NCBI RefSeq assembly: GCF_004322855.1
Contig: NZ_CP036402.1
Location: forward strand, 3,162,001-3,226,000
DNA from: Egibacter rhizosphaerae
GTDB lineage: Bacteria; Actinomycetota; Nitriliruptoria; Euzebyales; Egibacteraceae
Direction of reading: 5' to 3'
Length of the DNA stretch: 64,000 bases
Numbering within the stretch: the first letter of the stretch is position 1; every line of letters starts with the position of its first letter. Position numbers and translations under genes: made by a program. The notes under the pieces were generated by a model. The model did no database searches, had not been told where the DNA came from, and saw nothing but the letters and a program-made list of their open reading frames with translations. Below are positions 15,873 through 25,410 of this stretch, in pieces.

Positions 15873-17090
15873 TCAGAGGCGGACGAACCAGCCGCGCCGG
15901 TACATGCCGTAGTGGATCCCCCACCACACGACGGTGACGAGCAGACCGTAGAGCACCGACGCGGTGGCGACCCCGAACAGCGGCTCCGCCCACACCTCGA
16001 TCGTGCCCTCGTAGGCGTAGGTGAACGCGCCCTCGCCCTCGGGGCCGACCTCCCACAGGTCCAGGAGGTGGGCGATGACCCGCGGCACGGTGAACGCGAA
16101 CAGCGCGTTGCGGCCGAACACCTCGAACGTCCACCCGAGCCGGCGCATCCCGACCAGCTCCACGAGCCCGTAGAAGCCGGCGAGGATCAGCCACCCCCAG
16201 CCGGCGGTGAGCAGCACGAACGCGGGTGTCCACATCGCCTTGTTCACCGGCTGGAGCTCGCCGAGCGCGAGGCCGCCCCCCACGCCGAGCAGCCCGGCGG
16301 CGACCAGGAGCCCGAGCACGCCGGCCCGGCCCGGCCGCGCCGACGAGCCCGAGGACACCGCGTCCGGTGCGGTCGACCGCGACTCGTGGCTGCGCAGCCA
16401 GCGCCCGGTCCACCACCCGAGCATCACGGTCACGACCGACGGGATGGTCGACAGCAGCCCCTCGGGATCGAAGGGCCCGCCGCGGTGCAGGTGCGCCTCG
16501 GTGAGCACGAGCCGATCGACGTAGCCCGCGAGGTTGCCCTCGGGGGTCAGGACCCCGGCTCCCGCGCCCGGCACGGGCACGGTCGCGAGCGCGATGCCGT
16601 AGCCGACCAGGATGACGAGGCCGATCGCGACCTGGGCTCCCACCGAGCGCACGAGCAGCACGATCGTGGCGGCCGCGAGGTAGGCCAGCCCGATGCGCTG
16701 GAGCACGCCCATGATCCGGAACGTCGACAGGTCGGTCTCGGGCAGCTCGTAGAGCGCGAAGTTCAGCGCGAACCCGATCAGCACGAGCAGCGCACCCCGC
16801 CGCACCACGCCGGGCCACGGGGACTCCTCGGTGCGTCCCTCGACGTAGCGGGCGAGGGCGAACGCCATCGCCATGCCCATCGCGAAGAGGAAGAACGGCG
16901 CGATCAGGTCGCGGAAGGTCGCGCCGTGCCACTGCACGTGGGTCAGCTGGTACGGCGCGTTCGCCGAGCCCCCGCCGAGGCTCGACACGAAGATCATCGA
17001 GGCGACCGTGAAGCCGCGAAACGCGTCGAGCGAGCCCAGTCGGCCACGCAGGCCGGCGGGCGCGGCGACGGCGGGAGTGGCGCTAGCCAT
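15873..17090 (-). CDS. HGSNAT/DUF1624-type membrane acetyltransferase
   Basis: 405 residues from ATG 17090. The N-terminus SLDAFRGFTVASMIFVSSLG followed by QLTHVQWHGATFRDLIAPFF is the signature of the heparan-alpha-glucosaminide N-acetyltransferase-like (NagX/DUF1624/DUF5009) family. These multi-spanning proteins move acetyl groups across the membrane onto amino sugars; the conserved His is in THVQWHG. About ten hydrophobic segments follow. An ~35-residue hydrophilic loop near the middle (RSHESRSTAPDAVSSGSSAR) separates two membrane halves. It is divergent from the exported PIG-L deacetylase with 21 nt between starts, suggesting joint control of glycan N-acetylation. The exact acceptor is inferred. 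Confidence 0.83.
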   Translation of the reverse strand: MASATPAVAAPAGLRGRLGSLDAFRGFTVASMIFVSSLGGGSANAPYQLTHVQWHGATFRDLIAPFFLFAMGMAMAFALARYVEGRTEESPWPGVVRRGALLVLIGFALNFALYELPETDLSTFRIMGVLQRIGLAYLAAATIVLLVRSVGAQVAIGLVILVGYGIALATVPVPGAGAGVLTPEGNLAGYVDRLVLTEAHLHRGGPFDPEGLLSTIPSVVTVMLGWWTGRWLRSHESRSTAPDAVSSGSSARPGRAGVLGLLVAAGLLGVGGGLALGELQPVNKAMWTPAFVLLTAGWGWLILAGFYGLVELVGMRRLGWTFEVFGRNALFAFTVPRVIAHLLDLWEVGPEGEGAFTYAYEGTIEVWAEPLFGVATASVLYGLLVTVVWWGIHYGMYRRGWFVRL

Positions 17091-17111
17091 GACGACGGTA
17101 CCCTAGCCGAC
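17091..17111. promoter_or_regulatory. Second compact divergent promoter, leaderless candidate
   Basis: TACCCT (17099-17104) lies 7 nt before the ATG at 17112 on the plus strand. On the minus strand TAGGGT (17105 to 17100) lies 9 nt before the ATG at 17090. The two -10-like boxes overlap almost completely in the 21-nt gap between the acetyltransferase and deacetylase genes. No Shine-Dalgarno sequence is present for either. Function inferred. Confidence 0.5.
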
Positions 17112-18176
17112 ATGCCGCCCCCGGCCGCTGCCTCGCGACGTGCCACGTTGCGCGCCGGGGGAGCGCTCGTGGCCGCCGTGCTGCTCGCCGGCTGCGGGTG
17201 GTGGGCCGGCAGCGTCCGCGAGCCGCCCGACGCGCCGGCGCCCGCCGCGGGCGAGCGGGGCCTGCAGTACGTCGTGATTGCGCACCCCGACGACGAGTAT
17301 CAGGGATGGGGGCTGATCGGCGGGCGCGACGACACGTACCCGGTGTTCCTGCTGCTGACCCGGGGGGAGGTCACCGGTCGCTGCGACGGCGAGGCGTTCC
17401 AGCCCGAGCGGGGCGAGCGCCCCCCGGAGCCGCAACCGTTCGACCCCACCGACGTCGCCCGCTGCGCCGAGCAGCGCGTCGACTCGTGGCACGCGTTCCT
17501 CGACGGGATCGCCGAGCTCGAGGACGGGCTCGATCCGGAGCCGGAGGCGCAGGGCCGCCTCGAGGGCGAGGTCGCCTCCGGCGAGACCGCGCCGGAGCAT
17601 CCCTTCCGATCCGACCCGGCGGTGCACTACGACGTGTACGTCGGGGCCGACCACGCGCGGCTCGTGTTCGATCTCGGGGACGGGACCCTCACCGCCGACG
17701 AGGTCGCCTGGGCGGTGCACGAGGCGCGCCGCACCGCCGGGGAGGGACGGTTCCCGGTTGAGGCCGAGCGGGAGATCCTCGGCGCGAACTTCGCGAACGC
17801 GGACGGGCATCCGGACTGCGTCGACTACGACCATCCCGACCACGTCGCGGTCGACGAGGCGCTCTGGGAGGTCGACTTCGGCGTGCCGGGCCCGCAGCGG
17901 AACCGGGCCTGCGCGACCGACCCGCGGGTCCGGGACGGGGGGGAGACCGTGCCGGTGCCCCCGGAGGTGCACGAGCAGGTGTGGGCGGTCGAACCGCGAC
18001 CGGAGGACCCGGTCCACAACCCGGACGCGGAACGGGTCGGGGTGGCCCAGCGCGTCTACGGGTGGCTGGCGTTCACGTTCGGCGACGAGGACGCGCGGAC
18101 CTATTGGGAGGTCAGCGACGACGAGGCCGACACGATCTTCGCCCGCGAGCAGCACTTCTGGCGCGCGCACGACTGA
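17112..18176 (+). CDS. Exported lipoprotein, PIG-L/LmbE-family N-deacetylase
   Basis: 354 residues from ATG 17112. Residues 1-28 are a lipoprotein signal peptide (RRAT... then VAAVLLAGC), with Cys28 as the predicted lipid anchor. The catalytic domain starts with VVIAHPDDEYQGW, the zinc-binding AHPDDE motif. A late DYDHPDHVAVDEA supplies the third metal His, as in MshB/GlcNAc-PI de-N-acetylases. This would put an amino-sugar deacetylase on the outer face of the membrane, acting on extracellular glycan, opposite in effect to the divergent membrane acetyltransferase. The domain is interrupted by an acidic segment (about 100-170), longer than usual. The start fits a leaderless transcript. Confidence 0.85.
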   Translation: MPPPAAASRRATLRAGGALVAAVLLAGCGWWAGSVREPPDAPAPAAGERGLQYVVIAHPDDEYQGWGLIGGRDDTYPVFLLLTRGEVTGRCDGEAFQPERGERPPEPQPFDPTDVARCAEQRVDSWHAFLDGIAELEDGLDPEPEAQGRLEGEVASGETAPEHPFRSDPAVHYDVYVGADHARLVFDLGDGTLTADEVAWAVHEARRTAGEGRFPVEAEREILGANFANADGHPDCVDYDHPDHVAVDEALWEVDFGVPGPQRNRACATDPRVRDGGETVPVPPEVHEQVWAVEPRPEDPVHNPDAERVGVAQRVYGWLAFTFGDEDARTYWEVSDDEADTIFAREQHFWRAHD

Positions 18177-18501: not shown

Positions 18502-21500
18502 ATGCGTCGACAGCTCTCGCTCGTGCTTGCACTTCTCCTCGTGGTTGCGCTCACACCCGTCGGCGGTGTGGGCGCCGAGCCTGACGAGGATGCCACCGAC
18601 GATGATCCGTCTGACTCGCTGGGTGAGCGCTCCCAGGACCTGCGCGACGGCGCCCGGGAGCGCCTCGAGCGCGCGCGGGCCGATGCGGGCGGGTCCCTGG
18701 ACCGCGCCGATGCGCTGTCCGAGGCCGTCGAGGCGGACGAGCCCGACGCGCAGGCCCTCGCCGAGCTGCTGCCCGAGGTCGACGCCGACGCCGTCGCGGT
18801 CGACGGCACGTTCGATCCGCGGGACGACCGGCCGGGCGCACAGGCTCGGGTCCGGGACGACCGGCTCGTCGTCGGGCTGACCCTGCCATCGGTGGCGGAG
18901 GTCCTGGTCGAGGCGGCACCCGACGTGCGCGAGCCCGGCATCGAGGAGGCGCCCCAGGCCGAGGACGCCGAGGATCGGATCGCGCAGCAGCAGCAAGCGG
19001 TGCGCGCGGAGATCGCGGCGCACCAGCCGCCGGCGCGCGGGCCGCAGGTCCACCAGGACCGGACCGTCGAGCTGCGACAGGCGATCAACGCCCTGGTGGT
19101 CGACGGGGACGCCGAGCTGGCGCGGGAGCTGCTCGAGCTCGACGACGTCGCGTTCGTCGAGCCCGTCGTGAACTACGAGCGCGAGCTCGACCGGACCGTC
19201 GCTCAGGTGGGCGCCGGGGAGGTGCTGGACGAGGTGGGGATCGACGCGGACGGCGACGGCGTCTCGGTCGCCGTGCTCGACTCCGGCATCGACTACACCC
19301 ACGAGCGCCTCGGCGGCGACGGCACCGAGGACGCCTTCACCGCGGTGTACGGGGAGACCTGGGACTCGCCGGAGAACCAGCAGCTGCCCGGCGACGAGGA
19401 CGACCCGTTCAACAGCGACAAGGTCACCGAGGGCTTCGACTTCGTCGGCGAGATGTGGGGCGCCGACCCGAACGAGTTCCCCGACCCCGAGGAGCTCCCC
19501 GACGACCCGCTCGACGACGCGCTCCTCGACCCCAACCCGAACCCGATCGACATCGGGGGGCACGGCACGAGCGTCGCCGACATCGTCGGTGGCGTCGGCG
19601 AGGATCCCGGCGTGGCCCCGGGCGCCGACCTCTGGGGACTGAAGGTCTGCGCCTCCTACGGGCTGAGTTGCTCGGGGACGGCCCAGCTCGAGGCGATCGA
19701 CTACGCGCTCTCTCCCGAGGGCGACCCGGGGCTGCGCGACCGCGTCGACATCATCAACCTTTCGCTGGGCGCCGACTACGGGCTGCCGGAGACGACCGCG
19801 AGCACCCTCGCGCTCGAGAACGCGAGCGCGCTCGGGGTGAGCGTCGTCTCGAGCGCCGGCAACGCCGGTGACAACCCCTTCTCCACGGGCACGCCGTCGT
19901 CGGGCGACCCCATCCTGTCGGTCGCGCAGACCGCGGTCACCGGCGAGGCGGTCGACCTCGTCGAGGTGACCGCCGACGGCGCCACCGAGGAGTTCTCCGC
20001 GGTGCGCTTCTCGTTCAGCGAGGAGCAGGACGACCCCGTCGAAGCCGACCTCGCGATCGGCCCGGAGCTCGGCGACACCCCGGGCGAGCAGCTCGCCTGC
20101 AACGTCGACGACGAGGGCGGGATCGACCCCGACGGCGACCGGCCCTACGAGGAGGGGGAGCTCGACGGGCGGATCGTGGCGGTCGAGCGCGGCGAGTGCG
20201 CCTTCAGCGAGAAGGTCTCCAACCTCTCGGTCGCCGGGGCCGAGGTCGGCCTCGTGGTCCAGGACGTGGACGAGCCACCGTTCGACGGGGCCGACGGCGG
20301 CCACGAGCCCATCGACATCCCCGGCTACATGACCGAGACGGGGCTCATCGAGTTCGCGGACGGGGCGGACGACCTCGCCGCCTCGATCGATCCGGCCGAG
20401 GACGCCCCGCTGGACGACACCGTCGTCGGGACGAGCTCCCGCGGGCCGGCGCCGCAGAGCCACCAGCTCAAGCCCGAGATCGGCGCGCCGGGCGCCGCGA
20501 TGACCGCCCAGGCCGCGAGCGGTGACGAGACCACCACGTTCGGGGGCACGAGCGGCGCCGCGCCGCACGTGTCGGGAGCCGCCGCCGTGCTCCTCGAGCT
20601 GGAGCCCGACCTGTCACCGGGCGACGTCAAGGCGCGGCTCATGCACGCCGCGGACCGGGACCTCGAGACGTTCTTCGGCGAGCCTGCCCCCGTGTCGCGG
20701 GCCGGGGCGGGCGAGCTGCGCCTGGCCGACGCGGCCACCTCCGACCTGGTCGTGCGCTCCCGAGACCAGGAGGGCGCGGCGGCGGCGTTGTCGTTCGGCT
20801 TCCCCGACGTGACCGAGGAGACCACGGTCACCGAGCGGCTCGAGGTCGAGAACATCGGCGACTCGACCCGCACCGTCTCTTTCGCGGTCGAGGAGCGCAG
20901 CGGTGCCGGCCAGCCCGGCGTCGACGTGACCGTCGACAGCCCCGTCACCGTGAGCCCCGGTCAGGCGACGACGCTGAACGTGTCGATGACGATCGACCCG
21001 GCCGAGCTGGACGACTGGCGCCTGGATGCCGGCGTCGACGGTCGGGACGGTGACCTGTTGACCCACCTCGAGTACGACGGGTACGTGGTGGCCACCGATG
21101 AGGACGCCGACGAGGAGGCCGCCGCGGTGCCGTGGCACGTGCTGCCGCGGCCGGCCGGCGACGTCGACGCCGAGCCCAACGAGATCGGGATCGCCGATCC
21201 CACCGTCGAGCTGTCGAACGACGCTGAGGCCGACGCGGGGCTCGAGGGGTACGCGCTGCTCGGCGAGGACGAGCGCACCTACGACGAGGGCGACCCGTTC
21301 ACCCGGGAGTTCGCGGATCTGCGCGCGGCGGGGGTCCGCACGGTGGACATCGGCACCGACTTCGCCCTTGAGTTCGCCGTCGACACGTGGGACCGGACCA
21401 CCAACGCCTCCCTGCCGGAGAACCTGGAGGTCCAGCTCGACACCACCGGCGACGGCGACCCCGACCGTGCGATCTTCACCGTCGACATCGGGTTGATCAC

Positions 21501-24500
21501 GGGAGCGGGCCTGCAGGGACAGGCGGTCGCGGTGGTCGTCGACCCCGACACCGGCGCGATCCTCGCGGACCCGTTCTACGTGCAGCACCAGACGAACGCG
21601 GCGACCACGACCTTCGTGGCCCCGTTCGCGGCGCTCGGGATCGACCCCCTCGAGTATCTGCTGGGGATCGGCGAGCCGATCGACGTGACGGTGCTGGGGG
21701 TCGACGCGTTCGACGGCCTGCCGACCGACGTCATGCAGGGACCGCCGATCGTGCCGTTCGGTGAGCGGTTCCTGCCCGACCTGGAACCCGACGACGAGGC
21801 GCTCGTGCTCGACTCGGTCCTCGAGGCGGGCGAGACCCGCGAGATCGTGGGCTCCGAGTTGCTCGGCACCGACTCCGAGGATCTCGGCGTTTTGCTGCTC
21901 ACGAACGGGCGGTACCTCGCCGACGAGGAGATCGCCTCGACCGGCGCCCCCGAGGGGCGGGAGGCCATCGCCCTGCCCGCCCGCGAGGGCGTGGTCAACG
22001 TCGACGATCCCGCGGAGGTGTTCGACTCCGTGCAGGAGGCGGTCGGCGCCGCGGACGAGGGCGACACGCTGCTTGCCCGGGGCGAGTTCGAGGAGAACGT
22101 CGTCGTCGACACCGACGGTCTCGCGCTGCTCGCGTCCAACGCCGGGATCGCCGCCGCCGATCCGGCGGATCCCGCGCTCGAGATCCTCGCTGACGACGTG
22201 CTGGTCGACGGGTTCGACCTCGAGCTCGACCGCTCGCAGCAGCTGCCCACCAATCCCGGGGTCCTCGAGGCCTCCGACGCCGACGGGCTCGTGTTGTTCG
22301 GCCTCGACCTGTCGATCCCCGGTGACGACGTGACGCCCACGAACCCCGCGCTGCGGGCCGAGGGCGTGTCCGAGTTCGCGTTCGTCGAGGGTGTGCAGGC
22401 CGACGCGGCGGTCGCCTTCCACGAGGCCGGGGAGGCGGCCGATGTGCTGATCGACGACTCGATCGTGCGCACCGCCGGCGACGCGGGTATCTGGACCACC
22501 GGCGAGTTCCTGACCCTGGAGCTGTTCGGCAACACCGTCGAGGAGGCGGGGACCGAGGACGAGGACGCTTCCGACGTCCTCGTCGCCGAGCCCGTCGAGG
22601 TCATCAATGGCGTCGACACCGCCGAGGACCCGGCGCAGGTGGAGGACGCCGTCCTCGACCAGAACCCCGGCATCGACTCGGTGGAGCTGCCCTGGCTCGC
22701 CGAGGAGGAGGGCGCGCGGATCGGCGACGAGGTGTACGACACCATCGCCGAGGCGCTCGACGCGGCCGAGGAGGGCGACGAGATCGTCCTGCTCGGGACG
22801 TTCGACGAGTCGGTGGAGGTCGATGTCCCCGGCGTCACGATCCGCGGCAACTCGGCGACGATCACCGGCGACGGCGAGGCTCCGCTCGTCCGGGTCGCCG
22901 TGGACGACGTGTCGGTCGGCCCGAACCTCACGCTGGCGCAGGACCGCAGCACGGGCTCGGCGAACCCCGTCGCGCTCGACGGGGCGAGCGGTACGACCGT
23001 CGAGGGTGTCGAGGTCGACATCACCGACGACGGCGTGCCGGGGATCCCCGCGATCCGCGGTGGCGACGTCGGCGACACCGAGGTGACCGGGACCACCGTC
23101 GACGCGGCGATCGCGTTCGCCGGCCCGGACGCGGACGCGGACATCACCGTCACCGGCAACACGGTGACCACCGCCGGGGACGAGGCGTTCTGGACGGTCG
23201 GCGAGTTCGCGTCGCTGGAGCTGACCGGCAACACCGTCGAGGAGTTCGGGACGCTCGGCGAGGTCGACGCGGCCGTGAAGCTCGTCGACCGGCCGGGCGA
23301 GGTCAACGGCGAGACCCAGCCTCAGGCGGTGATCGACTCGGTCGTCGACGCGAACGAGGGCGTCGACGACGTGACCCTCGACTTCGTCGATCCCGGCACC
23401 GTCCTCAACCTCGCGACGAACGCGACGCACGACAGCGTGGGCGCCGCGATCGATGCCGCCCGGGCCGATGACACGCTTGTGCTCGCGGGGGAGTTCGAGG
23501 AGGGGGTCACGATCCCTGAGCACCTCGCGGGGCTGGAGCTGATCGGTCTCGACGGCGCGGCGCTCGACCAGCCCGACCCCGGGGAGCCGCTGCTGCACGT
23601 GCAGGCCGACGGGGTGCGGGTCAACGGCCTCGACCTGCGCGTCGACCGTCAGCCGGGGACCGTCGCCCCGCCCCATCGGCCGGTCGCCCTCGACGTCGAG
23701 GGGGTCGCGGACGTCACCGTCGAGGGCACGTCCATCGCGGTCGACGGCGGCGATCACGGCAACCACCCCACCCCCGCCCTTCGCGTCACCGACGGCGAGG
23801 GATCGCTCACGGTGCGCGAGGTCACGAGCCATCGCGCGATCGCGTTCGAGGGCCTGGACGAGGCCGCCGACGTGACGGTGCGCGACAGCACGGTGGCCGA
23901 TGCCGGCGACGCGGGGCTGTGGACCACCGGCGAGTTCGCGGCGCTCACGATCGAGGGCGTGACCGTGGAGGCGTTCGACGGCGACGCGGCCGCGGCGTTC
24001 GAGGACCCGTTCGGCGAGGTCAACGGCGTCACCGACGAGGCGGAATTCGAGGACGTGATCCTCGACGCGAACCCCGGCCTCGAGTCGGTCGGCCTGCCCT
24101 GGGTCGCGAACGGCGGCTCGGGCAGCGGCGGTGGTCCGGGCAGCGGCGGCCCGGGCAGCGGCGGCCCGGGCGGCGGCGGTGGTCCGGGCGGCGGCGGCTC
24201 GGGCGGCTCGGGCGGCTCGGACGGCTCCGGCGGTGACGGCGGTGGCTCGGATGGCCCCGGCGGTGACGGCGATGCCTCGGGCGAGGACGGCGGTGCGGTC
24301 GCCGGCACCGCGCTTGGCCGCACGGCCGGCGACGGCCGCTACGCGACCGCGGCCGACATCGCGACCAGCGCCTACGAGGACGCCAACACCGTGTACCTCG
24401 CGACGGGCGAGGCCTTCGCCGACGCGCTGGCCTCCGGCCCCGTGGCCGTCGTCGAGGGCGCTCCGTTGCTCCTCGTCCGCCGCGAGGGCGAGGTGCCCGA

Positions 24501-25410
24501 GCCGACCGCGGAAGCCCTCGACGAGCTGGCGCCCGAGCGGCTCGTGCTCGCCGGCGGTGAAGCGGCGATCGCCCCCGAGGTCGAGGATGCGCTCGGCGAC
24601 GCGGGCGCCGACGTGGAACGGGTCGACGGGACCGATCGGTACGCCACGGCGGCCGCGCTGGCGATGACGGCGTTCGACGACGCCGACACCGCCTACGTCG
24701 CGACCGGGGAGGGCTTCGCGGACGCGCTCGCGGGCGGCGCGGTCGCGGCGGCCGACGACGCGCCGGTGCTGCTCGCCGAGGAGGACGGCGTGCCCGAGGT
24801 CACCGCCGAGGTGCTGACGGCCCTGGGTGTCGAGGACGCGATCGTCCTCGGTGGCGAGGCGGCCCTGGGTCCGGACGTCGACGCGGACCTGGCCTCCCTC
24901 GTCGATGGCGACGTGGAGCGGATCGCTGGCGAGGACCGCTACGACACGGCCGCGGCACTCGCCCGGCGCATCGACGATGCGGAGGCCGCGTACGTCGCCA
25001 CCGGACAGGACTTCGCCGACGCCCTCGCCGCGGTGCCCGCCGCGGCGCAGGAGCCCGCACCCGTGCTGCTCGCCGCGAGCGAGCCGCCCCTGCCGTCCCC
25101 GCTCGTCGACGTGGTCTCCGATGCCGCGTTCGGCCGACTCGAGATCCTCGGTGGCGAGGCGGCCATCGCGGACTCGGTCGCCGAGCTGCTCGACCGAGCG
25201 CGCGCCGGCGAGCCGACCTGCGTCGACCTCAACGAGGCCGACGCGGAGCTGCTGGAGGAGATCACCGGCATCGGTGAGGTGCGCGCCGAGGCCGTCATGG
25301 ACGGGCGACCGTGGAACTCGGTGGACGAGCTCACCGCGATCTCGGGCATCGGGGAGGCCACCCTCGACGGCATCGTCGAGCAGGGGCTCGCCCGGGCCGA
25401 CTGTCCCTGA
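18502..25410 (+). CDS. Giant secreted subtilase: S8, PA, three beta-helix modules, three CWB2 repeats, terminal helix-hairpin-helix
   Basis: 2302 residues from ATG 18502, with GGAGGA 8 nt upstream. A signal peptide (VLALLLVVALTPVGGVGA) is followed by an acidic proregion to about 225. The subtilisin triad is Asp260 (AVLDSGIDYTHE), His354 (GGHGTSVADIVGG) and Ser684 (GGTSGAAPHVSG). A PA domain is inserted before the Ser at about 554-640 (VAVERGECAFSEKVSNLSVA). Then come beta-sandwich regions, three homologous ~220-residue beta-helix modules (about 1167-1390, 1406-1620, 1634-1865), a Gly/Ser linker (about 1871-1935), and three CWB2 repeats from 1938, 2039 and 2139 (DGRYATAADIA type). The end, 2240-2302, is a ComEA-like HhH domain (CVDLNEADAELLEEITGIG). 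Expected role: cell-wall-bound extracellular protease; DNA binding by the tail is inferred. Confidence 0.9.
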   Translation: MRRQLSLVLALLLVVALTPVGGVGAEPDEDATDDDPSDSLGERSQDLRDGARERLERARADAGGSLDRADALSEAVEADEPDAQALAELLPEVDADAVAVDGTFDPRDDRPGAQARVRDDRLVVGLTLPSVAEVLVEAAPDVREPGIEEAPQAEDAEDRIAQQQQAVRAEIAAHQPPARGPQVHQDRTVELRQAINALVVDGDAELARELLELDDVAFVEPVVNYERELDRTVAQVGAGEVLDEVGIDADGDGVSVAVLDSGIDYTHERLGGDGTEDAFTAVYGETWDSPENQQLPGDEDDPFNSDKVTEGFDFVGEMWGADPNEFPDPEELPDDPLDDALLDPNPNPIDIGGHGTSVADIVGGVGEDPGVAPGADLWGLKVCASYGLSCSGTAQLEAIDYALSPEGDPGLRDRVDIINLSLGADYGLPETTASTLALENASALGVSVVSSAGNAGDNPFSTGTPSSGDPILSVAQTAVTGEAVDLVEVTADGATEEFSAVRFSFSEEQDDPVEADLAIGPELGDTPGEQLACNVDDEGGIDPDGDRPYEEGELDGRIVAVERGECAFSEKVSNLSVAGAEVGLVVQDVDEPPFDGADGGHEPIDIPGYMTETGLIEFADGADDLAASIDPAEDAPLDDTVVGTSSRGPAPQSHQLKPEIGAPGAAMTAQAASGDETTTFGGTSGAAPHVSGAAAVLLELEPDLSPGDVKARLMHAADRDLETFFGEPAPVSRAGAGELRLADAATSDLVVRSRDQEGAAAALSFGFPDVTEETTVTERLEVENIGDSTRTVSFAVEERSGAGQPGVDVTVDSPVTVSPGQATTLNVSMTIDPAELDDWRLDAGVDGRDGDLLTHLEYDGYVVATDEDADEEAAAVPWHVLPRPAGDVDAEPNEIGIADPTVELSNDAEADAGLEGYALLGEDERTYDEGDPFTREFADLRAAGVRTVDIGTDFALEFAVDTWDRTTNASLPENLEVQLDTTGDGDPDRAIFTVDIGLITGAGLQGQAVAVVVDPDTGAILADPFYVQHQTNAATTTFVAPFAALGIDPLEYLLGIGEPIDVTVLGVDAFDGLPTDVMQGPPIVPFGERFLPDLEPDDEALVLDSVLEAGETREIVGSELLGTDSEDLGVLLLTNGRYLADEEIASTGAPEGREAIALPAREGVVNVDDPAEVFDSVQEAVGAADEGDTLLARGEFEENVVVDTDGLALLASNAGIAAADPADPALEILADDVLVDGFDLELDRSQQLPTNPGVLEASDADGLVLFGLDLSIPGDDVTPTNPALRAEGVSEFAFVEGVQADAAVAFHEAGEAADVLIDDSIVRTAGDAGIWTTGEFLTLELFGNTVEEAGTEDEDASDVLVAEPVEVINGVDTAEDPAQVEDAVLDQNPGIDSVELPWLAEEEGARIGDEVYDTIAEALDAAEEGDEIVLLGTFDESVEVDVPGVTIRGNSATITGDGEAPLVRVAVDDVSVGPNLTLAQDRSTGSANPVALDGASGTTVEGVEVDITDDGVPGIPAIRGGDVGDTEVTGTTVDAAIAFAGPDADADITVTGNTVTTAGDEAFWTVGEFASLELTGNTVEEFGTLGEVDAAVKLVDRPGEVNGETQPQAVIDSVVDANEGVDDVTLDFVDPGTVLNLATNATHDSVGAAIDAARADDTLVLAGEFEEGVTIPEHLAGLELIGLDGAALDQPDPGEPLLHVQADGVRVNGLDLRVDRQPGTVAPPHRPVALDVEGVADVTVEGTSIAVDGGDHGNHPTPALRVTDGEGSLTVREVTSHRAIAFEGLDEAADVTVRDSTVADAGDAGLWTTGEFAALTIEGVTVEAFDGDAAAAFEDPFGEVNGVTDEAEFEDVILDANPGLESVGLPWVANGGSGSGGGPGSGGPGSGGPGGGGGPGGGGSGGSGGSDGSGGDGGGSDGPGGDGDASGEDGGAVAGTALGRTAGDGRYATAADIATSAYEDANTVYLATGEAFADALASGPVAVVEGAPLLLVRREGEVPEPTAEALDELAPERLVLAGGEAAIAPEVEDALGDAGADVERVDGTDRYATAAALAMTAFDDADTAYVATGEGFADALAGGAVAAADDAPVLLAEEDGVPEVTAEVLTALGVEDAIVLGGEAALGPDVDADLASLVDGDVERIAGEDRYDTAAALARRIDDAEAAYVATGQDFADALAAVPAAAQEPAPVLLAASEPPLPSPLVDVVSDAAFGRLEILGGEAAIADSVAELLDRARAGEPTCVDLNEADAELLEEITGIGEVRAEAVMDGRPWNSVDELTAISGIGEATLDGIVEQGLARADCP

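Follow-up and report, generated by a model that had tools for sequence, protein, structure and literature searches.

Why would a bacterium keep a gene for an enzyme that adds acetyl groups next to one for an enzyme that takes them off? This question is raised by a locus in the 64,000-nucleotide stretch of the Egibacter rhizosphaerae genome that we analyzed (the window; the genome is a single 4.64-Mb contig). An ORF check placed both genes at the coordinates given by the first-pass annotation: the putative membrane acetyltransferase (405 amino acids) at positions 15873 to 17090 on the minus strand and the putative deacetylase (354 amino acids) at 17112 to 18176 on the plus strand, separated by a divergent gap of 21 nt at 17091 to 17111. 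The annotation had proposed that the two enzymes edit N-acetylation of an extracellular glycan and that competing promoters switch between them. Our analysis points to a glycan-tailoring pair whose enzymes are probably made together.

An HGSNAT-type membrane acetyltransferase

The acetyltransferase matches PF07786 (HGSNAT_cat) with an E value of 3.1e-12 and 46.9 bits, above the curated cut-off of 22, and phmmer aligns it with human HGSNAT at 9.5e-22. Its structural model (mean pLDDT, 79.4) superimposes on human HGSNAT structures with TM scores of 0.72 to 0.76 and on GWT1 with 0.62 to 0.63. The Pfam match and these scores bear out its earlier description as an HGSNAT-like membrane acetyltransferase. 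In the alignment the protein keeps the DxxR motif (D22 and R25), H51 (human H297), and D61 (human D307). The fold, the DxxR in TM1, and the catalytic histidine by which TmAT membership is judged are all present. The human histidine aligned with H51 is described as catalytic in the accessible part of PMC9007349, and an asparagine further along TMH1 is described as important for HGSNAT function in that of PMC12423673; by our reading of the alignment, this residue would be human Asn286. Since its position is occupied by Ser36 in the window's protein, we call the protein HGSNAT-type rather than HGSNAT. Across the 17 HGSNAT proteins paired with a PIG-L gene, asparagine is found here in 7, and Ala, Pro, or Gly is found in 9 of the 16 from outside the window, while the catalytic histidine is kept in 17 of 17. 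The closest NCBIfam model is NagX_SO_3504 (NF046061); the protein scores 170.8 bits against a cut-off of 480, and we rejected its identity as a NagX equivalog.

Two observations on related loci may be added. One genome (G054) encodes two HGSNAT-type proteins (L020 and L021) that have lost the catalytic histidine and the Glu of the DPEG motif, with Pro and Leu in their place; these proteins may be inactive or function differently. In another genome (G277), a PGA_cap capsule synthesis protein (PF09587, 5.4e-66) is encoded near the HGSNAT gene, at L101:1154-2947.

A predicted exported deacetylase of the PIG-L/LmbE fold

On its own, the window's deacetylase scores below the curated cut-off of PF02585 (E value, 0.059; 14.3 versus 28.2 bits), and the best E value among the four PIG-L relatives of our starting alignment (A1) is 1.7e-8. 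A sequence search of the PDB with this protein gave no match. Its structural model (mean pLDDT, 82.3) matches 22 entries at Z scores of 10.5 to 13.6, after which the scores drop to unrelated folds at 6.3 or lower. The 22 entries are LmbE/PIG-L proteins, one of which, 5cgz, carries the title of a hydratase; the best Foldseek match is MshB, at 1.4e-3. The model thus has the Rossmann-like fold of the LmbE family.

Two motifs, HPDDE (H58 to E62; positions 17283 to 17297, plus strand) and YDHPDH (Y239 to H244; 17826 to 17843, plus strand), align with the HxDD + H site of the LmbE/PIG-L superfamily, as defined in the available portion of PMC4101496, and we therefore take them as PIG-L-type metal motifs, with H58, D60, D61, and H244 at the site. 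In the 29-row alignment of relatives, H58, D60, and D61 are invariant; the position of H241 is altered in L042 and L045. Metal-dependent de-N-acetylase activity is predicted for the window's protein on this basis. Its N terminus, read by eye from the translation, has a lipobox LAGC (residues 25 to 28; 17184 to 17195, plus strand) preceded by a weak Tat-like motif, SRRATLR, and we predict a lipoprotein. The exported PIG-L lipoprotein of the first-pass annotation is thus supported by both motifs and the structural Z scores, with the lipobox assigned by eye and the PF02585 cut-off missed.

Several relatives depart from this pattern. Two near relatives of the window's PIG-L gene (L022 and L023; 2 of 28 rows) have Gln for the last metal-binding histidine, H244, and the HGSNAT genes of their genomes are located elsewhere, not beside PIG-L; these are possibly altered enzymes. 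In Frigoribacterium (L032:4932-6922), two PIG-L paralogues of the window's subfamily adjoin each other convergently, with one HGSNAT gene beside them. In Herbiconiux gentiana (L043:4938-5951), the PIG-L gene is interrupted by an in-frame TAG and the adjoining HGSNAT gene is intact; on account of the stop we excluded this locus from the PIG-L alignments, but it still counts as a pair. L016 was trimmed ahead of its CWB2 part in alignment A3.

The pair recurs in Actinobacteria

The first-pass annotation had suggested a search for conservation of the two genes as neighbors. We scanned a collection of 84,980 species, each represented by one genome, with the alignment of four PIG-L relatives, a scan blind to neighboring genes. 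It yielded 25 loci, all titled actinobacterial, and in 15 of them PIG-L and HGSNAT are immediate neighbors. Adding the window and G022 (both paired) and G028 and G040 (both unpaired) brings the tally for the PIG-L subfamily to 17 paired loci out of 29. Nine have the order HGSNAT then PIG-L (L030 to L034, L039, L042, L043, and L046), five have PIG-L then HGSNAT (L014, L025, L028, L044, and L045), and two are convergent (L027 and L029); the window's is the only divergent pair of the subfamily.

Three further loci show the same association with other deacetylases. In G418, an exported PIG-L protein of another subfamily (PF02585, 1.2e-16) is divergent from HGSNAT across a 55-nt gap, and in G454, of the same family as G418, an exported PIG-L protein, likewise from outside the window's subfamily (PF02585, 2.2e-18), is divergent from HGSNAT across 92 nt. 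In G090, a polysaccharide deacetylase of PF01522 (5.6e-36) is encoded directly upstream of HGSNAT in the same direction. The neighborhood is therefore conserved beyond the window. Over all 20 pairs, 15 are co-directional and three are divergent. Viewed from the HGSNAT side, a sample of 396 genomes from the phylum contains 12 HGSNAT loci with strong matches (E < 1e-50); an exported de-N-acetylase adjoins four of them (G000, G022, G418, and G090), and the other 8 have none among the neighbors checked. Export was judged by eye, every frame of the HGSNAT-centered loci was scanned for HPDDE-type motifs, PF01522 was sought only among neighbors submitted to Pfam, and weak matches (best E > 1e-50; six genomes) were left out. 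The HGSNAT of G090 was found in no other genome among the 16 searched within its order and that of G418 in 3 of 27 genomes of its family; in one of these three, G455, inspection by eye found no HPDDE-type neighbor.

The two genes also tend to share a genome. Of the 28 genomes with the PIG-L subfamily (the genome of L045 is not in this count), 22 have an HGSNAT gene at some position and six have none detected, versus 17 of the 396 genomes sampled from the phylum. In that sample the PIG-L subfamily is present in 4; the sample rates are lower bounds, because only some candidates were scored per genome. Fisher's test, which ignores kinship, gives a P value of about 5e-21, which does not change when the four shared genomes are dropped. 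Distances among PIG-L and HGSNAT proteins co-vary as well (Mantel r = 0.73, P = 1e-4, 16 pairs), but a common species tree produces such co-variation too, and we give it no weight.

In a tree of 36 HGSNAT rows, one clade of 23 (99/95) holds the 16 paired rows from outside the window, together with one further row and six of the seven whose genomes have PIG-L at another place. The window's HGSNAT falls outside this clade, and the pairing label needs at least three changes on the starred branches. The partnership thus seems to have arisen repeatedly. That PIG-L proteins of different subfamilies, a deacetylase of an unrelated family, and separate HGSNAT lineages all end up as neighbors is the strongest argument that the two activities work together. 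An all-against-all comparison of called genes gave, beyond the pair and CWB2 proteins, only groups of 3 to 4 loci, and we rejected a larger conserved operon; the flanking genes are otherwise mixed. A description of the pair turned up in none of the papers searched, a set that lacks most subscription journals.

CWB2-repeat proteins recur near the pairs

CWB2-repeat proteins recur among the genes flanking the pairs, and the window's own next gene encodes one. This gene (18502 to 25410, plus strand) specifies a secreted subtilase of 2302 residues (PF00082, 9.5e-38) with three CWB2 repeats (PF04122, 2.2e-44), a PA domain, and a C-terminal helix-hairpin-helix (HHH) domain (PF12836, 3.3e-8). Such domains are usually associated with DNA binding, and here one is found on a surface protein. 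It is possible that this surface protein uses the same glycan as the enzyme pair. On the other side of the pair, a plus-strand frame with a GT2 glycosyltransferase domain (PF00535, 2.3e-5) runs from about 13939 (approximate start) to 15840, convergent to the acetyltransferase gene.

For the window's genome, 146 CWB2 repeat matches are listed. CWB2 repeats are present in 25 of the 28 PIG-L genomes and absent from three, compared with 64 of 396 in the sample, a rate that is a lower bound in a comparison that ignores kinship; most CWB2 genomes of the sample lack the pair. A separate CWB2 gene lies within about 5 kb at 9 of 28 loci, versus 1.95 expected from each genome's own density (simulated P = 1.5e-5, with fused domains uncounted, each CWB2 gene taken to hold two repeats, and genome sizes approximated). 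At G022, no CWB2 was found within 16 kb. At three loci (L016, L040, and L041), a single reading frame encodes both the PIG-L domain and CWB2 repeats.

To our knowledge, the wall component that CWB2 proteins bind in Actinobacteria is uncharacterized. The target polymer of the pair is probably a wall glycan that CWB2-repeat surface proteins recognize. According to the accessible text of PMC4973711, the CWB2 repeats of Clostridioides difficile bind the anionic wall polymer PSII. SLH is a comparable anchor in Bacillus anthracis, and the wall polymer there carries a terminal repeat that is pyruvylated, O-acetylated, and N-deacetylated, as reported in PMC6081394. Taken together, these two cases make it plausible for an acetylation-editing pair to be encoded near CWB2 genes.

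Proposed function of the pair

We favor, with moderate confidence, an extracytoplasmic glycan-tailoring module that determines how much free amine a surface polymer carries; this polymer may be the CWB2 ligand. The HGSNAT-type protein would carry acetyl from cytosolic acetyl-CoA across the membrane and transfer it onto free amines of outward-facing amino sugars. The lipoprotein PIG-L enzyme would strip N-acetyl from amino sugars, either in the same glycan or in one connected to it. With joint production in most organisms, the two would adjust the share of free amines on the polymer to a level instead of toggling it. The two enzyme families, their intact main catalytic motifs, the recurrent and apparently repeated pairing, and the statistical link to CWB2 can be read from the sequences; from these we infer acetyl as the group, an amino sugar as the acceptor, a single substrate for both enzymes, the CWB2 ligand as their target, and the direction of the chemistry. 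Adding and removing acetyl at the same time could look futile, which speaks against an editing pair. A broader version, which we offer tentatively and think rather unlikely in full, is a module of exchangeable parts (an HGSNAT-type protein with PIG-L or PF01522), assembled several times in Actinobacteria, that would write and erase N-acetyl on the CWB2-binding wall polymer and so tune anchoring of the surface proteome.

The alternative that survives best is sequential acyl exchange, in which PIG-L removes N-acetyl and the membrane enzyme adds another acyl or an O-acyl to the product, so that the glycan is diversified rather than a single mark undone. Such a sequence has been proposed for poly-N-acetylglucosamine, with deacetylation by IcaB and O-succinylation by IcaC. 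The mostly co-directional pairs would suit such a sequence, and the accessible sections of PMC12423673 describe several acyl donors for TmAT proteins and present IcaC as a TmAT suggested to O-succinylate PNAG. The residue at the Asn286 position varies among the paired proteins, and its absence as asparagine from many of them keeps this alternative in play. The conserved histidine and a fold closer to HGSNAT than to GWT1, however, favor transfer of acetyl to an amine, and we regard acyl exchange as a less likely, though serious, competitor.

A NagX-type role is improbable. The NagX model is the nearest in NCBIfam, and NagX fitness data are given in the available part of PMC9007349, but the window's protein falls far short of the model's cut-off. 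The flanking genes that we examined include no recurrent chitinase, nag gene, or sugar importer; a sugar transporter is found once, at L030. Such a role would also leave the CWB2 link unexplained.

The gap probably serves both genes

The gap between the two genes reads GACGACGGTACCCTAGCCGAC. It holds two -10-like boxes on opposite strands, TACCCT at 17099 to 17104 on the plus strand, starting at -13 from the PIG-L ATG, and TAGGGT at 17105 to 17100 on the minus strand, starting at -15 from the HGSNAT ATG, with five bases in common. Rereading the sequence returned the divergent pair, the gap, and the overlapping boxes exactly as first annotated. The boxes form overlapping divergent -10 elements of the kind by which bidirectional promoters are recognized. 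A second TANNNT on the minus strand, TACCGT at 17100 to 17095, starts at -10 from the HGSNAT ATG. A search for a consensus sigma-70 promoter that includes a -35 element gave no match.

In 464 kb of the genome, including the window, 11 of 268 called ATGs have a TANNNT that begins 14 to 12 nt upstream, versus 0 to 3 for each position elsewhere; because these starts come from a simple gene caller, the leaderless peak is indicative only. The PIG-L box lies within the peak, the HGSNAT box is off by a single base, and the -10 candidate lies on the other flank. The leaderless spacing first claimed for both boxes therefore stands for the PIG-L box and misses by one base for the other.

Among the three divergent pairs, overlapping boxes occur only in the window; the other two, with gaps of 55 and 92 nt, have none. 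The PIG-L gene is absent from all 20 other genomes of the same family that were searched. As 15 of 20 pairs are co-directional, several of them overlapping, both enzymes are apparently made together as a rule, and the window's gap is probably a compact local bidirectional promoter that co-expresses both genes. According to a 2026 abstract (PMC12825309), RNA polymerases did not compete at any of five tested bidirectional promoters of E. coli at basal activity, which was too low for competition, and strong activation in one direction could repress the other. A promoter-competition switch, in which the overlapping boxes would allow only one of the two enzymes to be expressed at a time, is thus very improbable: such overlap is rare in random 21-mers (0.7% at 74% GC, 1.2% at the gap's own composition) and the PIG-L box fits the leaderless peak, but most pairs are co-directional, the other divergent pairs lack overlapping boxes, and the E. 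coli promoters showed no basal competition.

Relation to known systems

The window's acetyltransferase resembles HGSNAT and NagX (TmAT, PF07786) in its fold, DxxR, catalytic histidine, and D307 equivalent, and differs in the serine at Asn286, a score below the NagX cut-off, and an exported deacetylase as partner. The deacetylase shares the fold and the HxDD + H motif of LmbE/PIG-L de-N-acetylases such as MshB, BshB, diacetylchitobiose deacetylase, and LnmX. Unlike them, proteins of the window's type appear to be exported lipoproteins or membrane anchored, and the window's protein alone misses the PF02585 cut-off.

IcaB is the exported deacetylase of poly-N-acetylglucosamine in the staphylococcal ica operon. 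There, too, an exported deacetylase is combined with a TmAT acyltransferase, IcaC (the latter according to the available text of PMC12423673), on a surface amino-sugar polymer. On both sides the ica enzymes belong to other families, and the window's pair has no adjoining polymer synthase, although a GT2 frame adjoins it. By analogy, IcaB/IcaC would be the nearest functional parallel. In the GPI pathway, the PIG-L step comes first and PIG-W/GWT1 acts afterward. This pathway likewise combines a PIG-L deacetylase with a TmAT acyltransferase (PIG-W, in the accessible part of PMC12423673). In GWT1 the D of DxxR is missing and so is the catalytic histidine, the absences that mark GWT1/PIGW, whereas the window's acetyltransferase has both residues; we rejected membership in a GPI-like pathway for this reason. 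The bidirectional promoters of PMC12825309, studied in E. coli, are similar in that divergent transcription starts from pseudo-symmetrical promoter sequence, as it would from the putative promoter in the window.

Few roles have so far been known for bacterial relatives of HGSNAT. A recurrent acetyltransferase/deacetylase pair tied to CWB2 genomes offers a testable function, and hosts of the pair such as Agromyces, Microbacterium, Salinibacterium, and Herbiconiux are culturable. Both enzyme families are known; what appears to be new is their pairing, as a candidate system for extracytoplasmic glycan tailoring.
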